Assembly: GCA_036383255.1 (NCBI GenBank)
Contig: DASVOS010000018.1
Span: 219,432-283,431 of the forward strand
Source of the DNA: Gammaproteobacteria bacterium
Lineage (GTDB): Bacteria > Pseudomonadota > Gammaproteobacteria > Natronospirales > REEB76
Direction of reading: 5' to 3'
Length of the DNA: 64,000 nucleotides
The position numbers and the translations under genes are program-made. Positions 25,473-46,771 of this stretch are shown piece by piece; within the stretch, counting starts at the first letter, position 1, and each line of letters starts with the position of its first letter. The notes beneath the pieces were generated by a model. It saw only the letters and a list, made by a program, of their open reading frames with translations. It did not search any database and was not told the DNA's origin.

Positions 25473-25637
25473 TCGATTGCTGCGGGTTTAACCCAAAGGC
25501 GCCACCGAAAGGTGGCGCCTTTTCTTTTACCAGCCACAACCATCCCTGGTGCATCGTTCCCTGGGCGACCATCCAGGTCGCCCGTCTCGGGCCTTCGGCC
25601 CGAGACCCGCTGCTGGCTCATGGCGGCTGAGATCGAT
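25455..25637. repeat. Hairpin element with duplicated gene 3' end, family B (B2)
   Basis: The 3' end of hppA (25455-25476, from CTGGCTCACGGCGG to ATCGAT) recurs at 25613-25636 as CTGGCTCATGGCGG to ATCGAT with a few changes. Between the copies stand the hppA terminator, CCAG...CATCCCTGG (25530-25549), GGGCGACC/GGTCGCCC (25563-25583) and GTCTCGGGCC/GGCCCGAGAC (25584-25606). The second copy is followed by a look-alike terminator. The order of CCAG hairpin, two further hairpins and 3'-end copy matches B1. Confidence 0.75.
25498..25528 (+). terminator. Rho-independent terminator of hppA
   Basis: GGCGCCACC GAAA GGTGGCGCC is followed by TTTTCTTTT. The stem starts 26 bases after the hppA stop. Confidence 0.9.
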
Positions 25638-25654
25638 GATCGACTAGAAGTTGA

Positions 25655-25681
25655 GAGGCCGCCGAAAGGCGGCCTCTTTCT
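25655..25681 (+). terminator. Second, duplicated terminator after the B2 element
   Basis: GAGGCCGCC GAAA GGCGGCCTC is followed by TTTCTTT. It has the same stem length, the same GAAA loop and the same U-rich tail as the hppA terminator, which suggests it was copied with the 3' end of hppA and then diverged. It abuts the convergent sqr stop. Confidence 0.8.
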
Positions 25682-44431: not shown

Positions 44432-44499
44432 GCAAGCCCCTGAAAAGCAATCGAAAAACAGCGGGCATGATAGCACGCAGGGCTTTATACTCGGCCGGC

Positions 44500-45384
44500 A
44501 TGAAGCGCGCCCTCTTCAACCCCCACTACTGGCCCATCTGGTTCCTGCTGGGGTTCGTCCGGCTGGCGGTGTACCTGCCCTATTCCTTGCAGCTGTCCCT
44601 GGGCCGGGGCCTGGGCACGCTGCTCAGGCTCACGGCGCGGCGCCGCTGGCGCATCACCCTCGTCAACCTGGAACGCTGCTTCCCGGAGCTGGATGCTCCG
44701 GCCCGCGAACGCCTGGCCCGCCGCCACTTCGACTCCCTCGGCATGGCCTTCATCGAGATCGGCATGTGCTGGTGGGCGAGCGCCGGGCGCCTCAAGGGGC
44801 TGGCCCACATCGAGGGCGTGGAGAACCTGAACGCGGCGCGGGCCGAAGGCCGCGGCGTGATCCTGCTCAGCGCCCACTTCACCACGCTCGAGATAGGCGG
44901 GCGCCTCTTGGGCCTGTGCACGGACTTCCACCTCATGTACCGGCCGAACCAGAACGCGCTGATCGAAGAGGTGATGCGCCGCAGCCGCGAGCGCCACTTC
45001 GACCGGGCCATCCCACGCAACGACGTGCGCCTGATGTTGCGCAGCTTGAAGGAGGGCAAGCCCGTCTGGTACGCCCCGGACCAGGGCTATCGCGGCAAGA
45101 ACAGCGAGATGGTGCCGTTCTTCGGCATCCCCGCCCCCACCAACACCGCCACATCGCGCCTGGCCCGTACCACCGGCGCGCCGGTGGTACCGTTCTTCGT
45201 GGAGCGCCTGCCGGGCACCGAGGGCTACGCCCTGGTGCTGGAGCCCGCGCTGGAGGGCTTCCCCACGGACGATCCGGCGGCGGACGCACTGCGCATCAAC
45301 AAGCTCCTGGAGGAACGCATCCGGCGGGTGCCGGAGCAGTACCTCTGGAGCCACGACCGTTTCAAGGTCGTGCCGCGCGATTGA
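44500..45384 (+). CDS. lpxL: Lipid A biosynthesis acyltransferase (LpxL/HtrB family)
   Basis: A 294-residue inner-membrane acyltransferase that transfers a secondary acyl chain to Kdo2-lipid IVA. The HX4E catalytic motif is H126 and E131 in [14 protein letters not shown]. The N-terminus is hydrophobic ([20 protein letters not shown]) and a conserved [19 protein letters not shown] and [12 protein letters not shown] complete the family. The ATG at 44500 is used. TATACT eight bases before it may be a -10 of a short-leader transcript. The stop lies in the first stem of a hairpin array. Confidence 0.93.
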
Positions 45385-45538
45385 GGCGCATTCGCGCCTC
45401 AATCTGCGCTTCCACAACATAGGCCTGAACGGCGCCATCCTGGGCCGTTCAGGCTCGGCGGTCCGGTACACGCCCGGACCGCCTCCGTCACGCGAGCGCA
45501 GGAACACTCGCGTGACGCGCGATGCATCCTGCATCGCG
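45381..45538. repeat. Array of five different hairpins between lpxL and the next gene (C)
   Basis: Five adjacent inverted repeats of unrelated sequence lie in 158 bp: TTGAGGCGC attc GCGCCTCAA (45381-45402), an 11-bp stem at 45423-45454 with an inner CCA TCC TGG, GGCGGTCCGG/CCGGACCGCC (45457-45483), GTCACGCGAG/CTCGCGTGAC (45487-45516) and CGCGATGCA TCC TGCATCGCG (45518-45538). The first stem contains the lpxL stop codon. No U-tract and no coding sequence is present. Confidence 0.85.
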
Positions 45539-45571
45539 TATCAGATGTTCCAAAGCTAATGGAGATTGGAG

Positions 45572-46771
45572 ATGGCACGCGTACTCTTATGCTGGGAACT
45601 GGGCAACGGCCTCGCCTACGCCGAAGGCCTCACTGCCGGCGGCAAGATCATCTCCAAGGCCGGGCACGAGGTGCAGGCCGCCCTGCGTGACCTCACCCAT
45701 GCCGAGCGCCTGCTGGGCGACCGCTTCAAGTACTACCAGGCCCCGACCCAGGTGATCCCGGTGAGCACGCCGCTGCCCTCGCCCATGACCTTCGCCGACG
45801 TGCTCATCAACCTGGGCTATGGCAACCCCGGCGCGGTCACCGCAAGGGTGCGCGCCTGGCGACACCTGCTGGAGCAGGTGAAACCGGACATCGTGCGCTG
45901 CGCCCACGCCCCCTCCGCCATGCTGGCGGCCCGCGGCACCGGCATCCGCACCCTGGTGGTGGGCATCGGTTTCCTGGTGCCGCCAGCCCAATCGCCGCTG
46001 CCCTTGCTGCGTACCTGGGCCAAGAACGCGGATCCGGAGCGCATGGCCGCCCGCGAGCAGATGGTGCTCTCGAGCATGAACCAGGGCCTGGACGCCATCG
46101 GCGCGCCGCGCGTGGCCAGCATCGGCGCGCTGTACGGCGAAGCGGACATCCGCGAGCTCTATACCTATCCGGAACTGGATGACTACGGCCCGCGCCGGGA
46201 CGTGAAGTACCTGGGCAACTTCCAGCCGGGCATGGGCGAGGCGCCCGCCTGGCCGGAGGCGCCGGGCAAGAAGATCTTCGCCTACCTGGAGCCCTTCAAG
46301 CCCATCGCCGATGTGCTGCGCGCGCTCGCCGCCACCGGCCAGCCGGTGCTGGTGTACATGCCCCATGCGCCGGAGGAACTCACCCGCCGGTACGCCGCCG
46401 GCAACCTGCGCATCACCCAGCGACCGCTGGACCTCGCCCGCACCGCCCAGGAGTGCGACCTCGGCGTGACCCACGGCGGCCACAACATCGTCGGCACCCT
46501 GCTCTACGCCGGCAAGCCGCAGATCGCCATCCCCACCGTGTTCCCGGAACGCATCACCGCCGAGAAGGTCGCGGGCCTGGGCGCGGGGACCACGGCGCGC
46601 ATGGAGGCGGCGGACCTCACGGCGCAGCTCGGCAAGGTGCTGCAGGATGCTGCATTCACGGAGAAAGCGCGCACCGTGGCCAAGCGCATCGAAGGCCTGG
46701 GAATGGCGTTCGCGCTCAAGGAGGCCGTGGTTTCGGTGAACGCGCTGGCCCAGGCCGGCCCGCGCAAGTGA
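45572..46771 (+). CDS. UGT-like glycosyltransferase (GT-B fold), substrate unknown
   Basis: A 399-residue protein of the UDP-glucuronosyl/erythromycin-type glycosyltransferase fold. The N-terminal half (LLCWELGNGLAYAEGLTAGGKIISKAGHEVQAAL) and the C-terminal nucleotide-sugar motif VTHGGHNIVGTLLYAGKPQIAIPTVFPERITAEKVAGLGAG match GT1-like enzymes. Membrane segments are absent. The ATG at 45572 has GGAG seven bases upstream; a TTG at 45566 is less likely. It follows the lipid A acyltransferase and precedes the Kdo kinase, so it may modify lipopolysaccharide or another envelope glycan. The stop is one base from the convergent kdkA stop. Confidence 0.8.
   Translation: MARVLLCWELGNGLAYAEGLTAGGKIISKAGHEVQAALRDLTHAERLLGDRFKYYQAPTQVIPVSTPLPSPMTFADVLINLGYGNPGAVTARVRAWRHLLEQVKPDIVRCAHAPSAMLAARGTGIRTLVVGIGFLVPPAQSPLPLLRTWAKNADPERMAAREQMVLSSMNQGLDAIGAPRVASIGALYGEADIRELYTYPELDDYGPRRDVKYLGNFQPGMGEAPAWPEAPGKKIFAYLEPFKPIADVLRALAATGQPVLVYMPHAPEELTRRYAAGNLRITQRPLDLARTAQECDLGVTHGGHNIVGTLLYAGKPQIAIPTVFPERITAEKVAGLGAGTTARMEAADLTAQLGKVLQDAAFTEKARTVAKRIEGLGMAFALKEAVVSVNALAQAGPRK

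Follow-up and report, generated by a model that had tools for sequence, protein, structure and literature searches.

The question raised by the interval directly behind an lpxL-type gene, in the 64,000-nucleotide stretch of gammaproteobacterial DNA analysed here (the window), is why five different perfect hairpins stand there in tandem. The original prediction placed the array at 45381 to 45538 and gave its stems as 9 to 11 bp. All five hairpins were located at 45379-45538 (Table 1), each perfect, with stems of 11, 11 (plus an inner CCA/TGG), 10, 11 and 9 bp; the array is thus real, and only its start shifts, as H1 begins two bases earlier than given and overlaps the lpxL stop codon. That such stems might be no more frequent than expected for this GC content had been named as the outcome that would speak against the array. 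The window holds 23 perfect hairpins with a stem of at least 9 bp, whereas 20 second-order Markov shuffles average 5.9, and five of these 23 crowd into 160 bases. The 186-base stretch that carries the array reaches an RNA minimum free energy of −115.2 kcal/mol, which 0 of 200 shuffles match (shuffled mean −67.5, z = −11.49). The crowding therefore exceeds chance.

Table 1. Features of the lpxL locus, in positions of the window.
Feature	Position	Strand	Description
lpxL-type lipid A acyltransferase gene	44467..45384	+	PF03279, E 3.6 × 10−69; upstream of array
H1	45379..45404	+	11 bp, loop ATTC; overlaps lpxL stop codon; absent from repeated unit
MITE-interior copy HA-HB-HC-HD	45421..45540	+ (orientation of models)	R2 101.9 bits, E 5.7 × 10−20 (R2 itself includes this copy)
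Putative selected RNA	45421..45540	-	HD first, HA last, two GGA-loop hairpins; suggested by wobble, loops and stability
HA = H2	45423..45454	+	11 bp, stem GCCTGAACGGC, inner CCA-TCC-TGG; loop GGA on minus strand
HB = H3	45457..45483	+	10 bp, loop TACACGC, same loop in G010
HC = H4	45486..45517	+	11 bp; stem differs from family consensus yet perfect
HD = H5	45518..45538	+	9 bp, CGCGATGCA-TCC-TGCATCGCG; loop GGA on minus strand
Glycosyltransferase-like gene	45575-46771		PF06722; downstream of array

An array that begins right at a stop codon invites the reading that it is an ordinary cluster of terminators or a 3' end structure of lpxL. As the original prediction had held, no T tract is present; two terminator-like sites are called in 45100-45800, neither of them within the array, and the HA-HD unit is found elsewhere in both orientations and, in places, between divergent genes, which makes this reading very improbable for the array as a whole. 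H1 by itself is perhaps the end structure of lpxL.

The remaining hairpins, H2 to H5, are not the separate stems that had been described but an ordered four-hairpin unit (45421-45540), one copy of an element dispersed as a transposable element, with H1 as an unrelated hairpin that is not in common with the other copies. The copies follow the plan HA - CTC(G) - HB - (C)TCC - HC - HD, some of them without HC, and the TCC loops noted in two of the hairpins fall at fixed places, HA and HD, the hairpins that open and close the unit. Searching relatives at the DNA level turned up a homologous array in G010, a genome of another genus of the same family, where it lies behind an unrelated gene with an identical hairpin order and the same HA and HB loops and differing stem sequences; it was the sole homologue among the 19 retrieved loci that were parsed after a plain BLAST search of 56 genomes with the array. 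A multi-branched junction closing the array (AACAU/AUGUU) was considered and rejected, being absent in G010.

Models that score structure as well as sequence extend this family considerably. R1, built from the window copy and the G010 copy, matched (E ≤ 10−3) 20 places in the window's own genome and 9 of the 12 genomes of its family, and had no match at this threshold in 7 further genomes of the order. R2, a covariance model from 18 copies that include the window's, matched the own genome at 25 places and the complete genome G142 at 110 (E ≤ 0.01), and at E ≤ 10−4 had at least one match in 48 of 369 genomes sampled from the class, a lower bound given that at most 9 candidates were scored per genome. 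A search of named genomes with the HC pattern gave 26 stretches, all 26 of which R2 matches; the carriers include Rhodanobacter glycinis, Lysobacter chinensis, Dyella choica, Rehaibacterium terrae, an Immundisolibacter MAG and Gammaproteobacteria bacterium REEB234 (L122). That CATCC-loop hairpins may be widespread in high-GC gammaproteobacteria, as had been suggested, is thus borne out for the class. The exact HB motif occurs in 4 of 19 genomes across the order, two of these (G018, G007) having only candidate copies; a long pattern had 0 matches in viral contigs, and a distant BLAST of plasmids with two copies as queries had none.

This abundant, class-wide repeat family is matched neither in Rfam nor in the literature searched, where no description of it was found among the matches listed. 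Against Rfam 15, the window had 0 matches at gathering thresholds. Eight loci with copies, searched up to E 1, gave a tRNA lying outside the element and three further matches below threshold, of which ivy-DE (L101:1470-1537), at 26.4 vs 41.4 bits and E 0.64, touches an element end. The comparisons below use a set of 143 copies, 21 from the own genome, 14 from the family and 108 from the class. Eighty copies were hand-picked among the matches listed, and 4 of 39 places (G001e, G008c, G008b and L080b; duplicate, overlapping or poor) had been dropped before the set was made; an earlier mismatch count also omitted three weak family copies. Two partial copies, tandem or nested, lie in the own genome at L080:2082-2280.

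How the unit was dispersed is best seen in other genomes, where it is often followed by a fifth hairpin, HE, and flanked by two types of inverted end, CAGG-n-TGTTGAA and GGAA-nn-TCTGAA. Such ends, defined by at least 9 of 12 matching end bases adjoining YTAR, were found beside this motif in 33 of the 143 copies, 30 of which have an exact 4-bp duplication, and eleven other four-base classes used as a control gave 0 to 2 copies each. YTAR is the duplication motif of IS5 according to the available text of one source (PMC10359306). In G142 the ends could be located in 37 of 40 stretches; the MITE is about 153 bp long, is without a transposase gene, has many copies per genome, and shows exact 4-bp duplications in 34 of the 37 located copies, 28 of them YTAR. 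The same genome carries five copies of a 1158-bp IS5-family element (NF033581 type) with YTAR duplications, exact in 4 of the 5, and with ends, GGAACTTCTGCAAAAG and GGATGCTCTGAACAAG, that are similar to those of the MITE though not identical, the right end resembling the MITE end at 14 of 16 bases. Unlike the MITE, this IS has a transposase gene and no hairpin unit, and R2 matches at the IS loci fall outside the IS. PF01609 was not found in three other genomes searched besides G142. At two places in G142 (L228:2463-2641 and L230:805-1030), the MITE adjoins an IS5-family copy with just a YTAR sequence between them. The inverted ends, the YTAR duplications and the IS5-family element with similar ends together identify the family as a MITE, probably one mobilised by transposases of the IS5 type. 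A repeat of the REP/REPIN kind, which depends on a Y1 transposase (RAYT), would likewise be short, palindromic, intergenic and dispersed; these repeats have other ends, duplications and transposase, Y1_Tnp (PF01797) has 0 matches in the own genome, and the copies elsewhere have 4-bp duplications and IS5-like ends, so that this origin is highly improbable.

In the window's own genome, both ends and duplications are gone in all 21 copies, including that of the window, and a search for a target duplication gave no peak above chance. The own-genome copies are therefore old, and H2-H5 is a fossil member of a highly structured MITE family that ranges across the class; from the ends and duplications of its relatives, the window copy is inferred to have once been mobile. 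Although the mobile ends are gone, the stems of the own-genome copies have varied while pairing stayed, since 36 of 39 pairs have double compensatory changes in these rows alone and 93.3% of cells pair (counts from alignment A6, in which one likely false row, L073:3399-3511, is retained). Similarly, an 18-copy alignment has 35 of 39 pairs changed on both sides and 91.6% of cells paired, against 30-44% with the partners slid. Part of this compensation pattern could also have arisen if different subfamilies had invaded independently several times. The loops stayed constant: read by eye, 18 of the 19 own-genome copies with an HA hairpin keep TCC in its loop, and 20 of 21 keep it in that of HD.

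Perfect stems may be maintained for reasons other than the folded molecule. Quasipalindrome correction, in which template switching copies changes from one arm onto the other, would keep the palindromes of a neutral MITE perfect with no function of the folded RNA or DNA, and such a reading fits the 271 of 394 distinct hairpins that are perfect, the rarity of both kinds of wobble and the presence of copies in both orientations. Arm correction is, however, strand-symmetric. As the arms are reverse-complementary, matching transitions give G.T or A.C in the same context, and mutation alone thus predicts equal numbers of the two; plus-strand model searches would, if anything, favour G.T. Among mismatches in the 394 distinct hairpins, there are instead 72 A.C and 27 G.T (p = 7 × 10−6), a ratio that becomes 45:17 with one count per genome, hairpin and position, 51:24 with one count per context (p = 0.002) and 12:4 in the own genome alone (p = 0.08), these p-values being optimistic because kinship among copies is removed only partly. 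Each plus-strand A.C reads as G.U on the minus strand, so that the excess favours RNA read from the minus strand. Stability points the same way: of the 143 copies, 113 fold more stably as the minus strand and 30 as the plus strand, or 35 against 9 by genome (p = 3.6 × 10−6, optimistic for the same reason). The difference is present for HB, HC and HD and absent for HA, and in the window copy it amounts to −91.0 against −84.6 kcal/mol. A GNRA loop in HC is seen in 18 copies when the minus strand is read and in 1 when the plus strand is. Fixed loops add a further difficulty for neutral correction, which touches arms only: GGA is kept in the HA and HD loops and not in those of HB and HC. A neutral origin of the perfect stems is, for these reasons, unlikely.

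A second possibility is that folding of both strands was selected because it makes insertions harmless, hiding Rho-loading and RNase sites so that transcriptional read-through is not cut short. The stems are nearly all Watson-Crick, as would be required if both strands fold, the array folds at z = −11.5, all four arrangements of neighbouring genes are present and no located copy lies inside a called gene; the G.U pairs, rare on both strands, are odd for a selected RNA and count against a minus-strand one. This reading nevertheless leaves the fixed GGA in two loops and the excess of A.C over G.T unexplained, and is judged quite unlikely. Wobble and stability together support selection of the structure as an RNA read from the minus strand. 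An anti-Shine-Dalgarno role of UCC loops on the plus strand was dropped because the same two lines of evidence favour the minus strand.

On that strand, the loops suggest a ligand. The TCC of the original prediction was correctly seen, but its minus-strand reading, GGA, on the strand apparently under selection, was missed. Among the 84 of 143 copies that parse into exactly four hairpins, which were found by models that already contain the loops, a minus-strand loop with GGA occurs in 75 HA and 71 HD, compared with 2 HB and 3 HC; the window copy has both. Of the distinct hairpins, 46 of 57 HD and 29 of 65 HA have the core C-ANGGAN-G, TCC being absent near the loop centre in 5 HA and 11 HD. CsrA recognises GGA in hairpin loops, with the SELEX consensus RUACARGGAUGU and an ANGGAN loop in structures, as given in the available part of one article (PMC7652899), which also has it that stable stems of 9-15 bp may disfavour CsrA; the accessible text of another (PMC4383904) describes GGA motifs for CsrA as generally paired. 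The own genome encodes CsrA, as do 46 of the 48 genomes that bear the element and 267 of the 321 that do not (Fisher p = 0.018, with genome size and kinship uncorrected); the two exceptions among the bearers, G110 and G140, gave no CsrA match. These exceptions and the long stems of the element count against binding by CsrA. Binding of a CsrA/RsmA-type protein by the minus-strand GGA hairpins HA and HD may be entertained as a possibility, short of being likely.

Transcription from that strand bears on the same point. No sigma-70-like promoter site was called in 45100-45800, and no orientation preference relative to neighbouring genes was found; in G142, no located copy lies within a called gene and the neighbouring gene directions are ++ 6, -- 9, +- 9 and -+ 10, with three undetermined. 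The lack of both weakens the case for the putative minus-strand transcription.

The explanation that probably fits best overall is that of a MITE family whose window copy has eroded and whose fold has been kept as a minus-strand RNA, a candidate ligand of a CsrA-type protein. Elsewhere in the class, the element has inverted ends, YTAR duplications and many copies, and an IS5-family insertion sequence has similar ends; in the window's genome, the ends are lost while the hairpins persist with compensated stems, the fold probably being kept by selection on RNA read from the minus strand. Transcription through an insertion would then yield an RNA that tethers or titrates a CsrA/RsmA-type regulator via two GGA hairpins. 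If CsrA binds, transposition would be a route for a global regulator to gain or lose targets. More tentatively, and on the doubtful side, a transposon family may have spread an RNA with two CsrA/RsmA-binding sites through the Gammaproteobacteria, reaching up to about 110 copies per genome, so that its jumping could titrate global post-transcriptional regulation or wire it anew to neighbouring genes, with the window's lineage having kept only the protein-binding fold while the jumping parts decayed. The family is in any case a clean example of mobile DNA that shows both base-pair covariation and strand-specific wobble, in which selected RNA in MITEs becomes testable.

Among known systems, the QMITEs of Coxiella are likewise short, non-coding elements with inverted ends, many intergenic copies and stable stem-loops in the transcript; in the available part of their description (PMC5896051), they have long palindromes or inverted ends, other direct repeats and no relatives in other genomes, whereas the present element is class-wide and consists of four or five separate hairpins, always in the same order, whose stems show compensatory changes. 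Small RNAs of the CsrB/RsmZ type carry GGA in the loops of several hairpins, with paired sites, in the accessible accounts of them. The minus strand of the element has two such loops, but differs in having only these two GGA hairpins, in its long perfect stems, in being mobile and multicopy, and in lacking a called promoter and an Rfam match. REP/REPIN repeats share with it the dispersed, palindromic and intergenic character.

Around the array, the window places the array and the glycosyltransferase-like gene (45405-46771) between lpxL and waaP. In the relatives, waaP was matched in 10 of 11 loci (L022-L031), with fewer than 30 bases between the lpxL and waaP alignments in 8 of them, and the glycosyltransferase-like gene was matched in 0 of the 11. 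As lpxL and waaP adjoin in the relatives, the array and the glycosyltransferase gene together either were inserted in the window's lineage or were lost from the others. When the glycosyltransferase served as a synteny anchor in genome contigs, 89 pattern matches resulted, of which 0 were confirmed. A perfect 10-bp hairpin with a T-rich tail, called terminator-like, lies within the lpxL coding sequence at 45167-45190.

Farther away in the window, positions 25541-25606 carry CCATCCCTGG and a hairpin of the kind GGGCGACC-ATCCA-GGTCGCCC, between terminator-like hairpins at 25495-25522 and 25654-25677; R2 gave no match there, and the hairpin is perhaps a decayed relative of the element. Finally, an unrelated perfect hairpin was seen by eye 20-40 bases before HA in several own-genome copies, among them L071, L076, L080, L081 and L085, as in the window at 45379-45404; the pattern looks as though insertion had taken place just past the terminator of the gene upstream.
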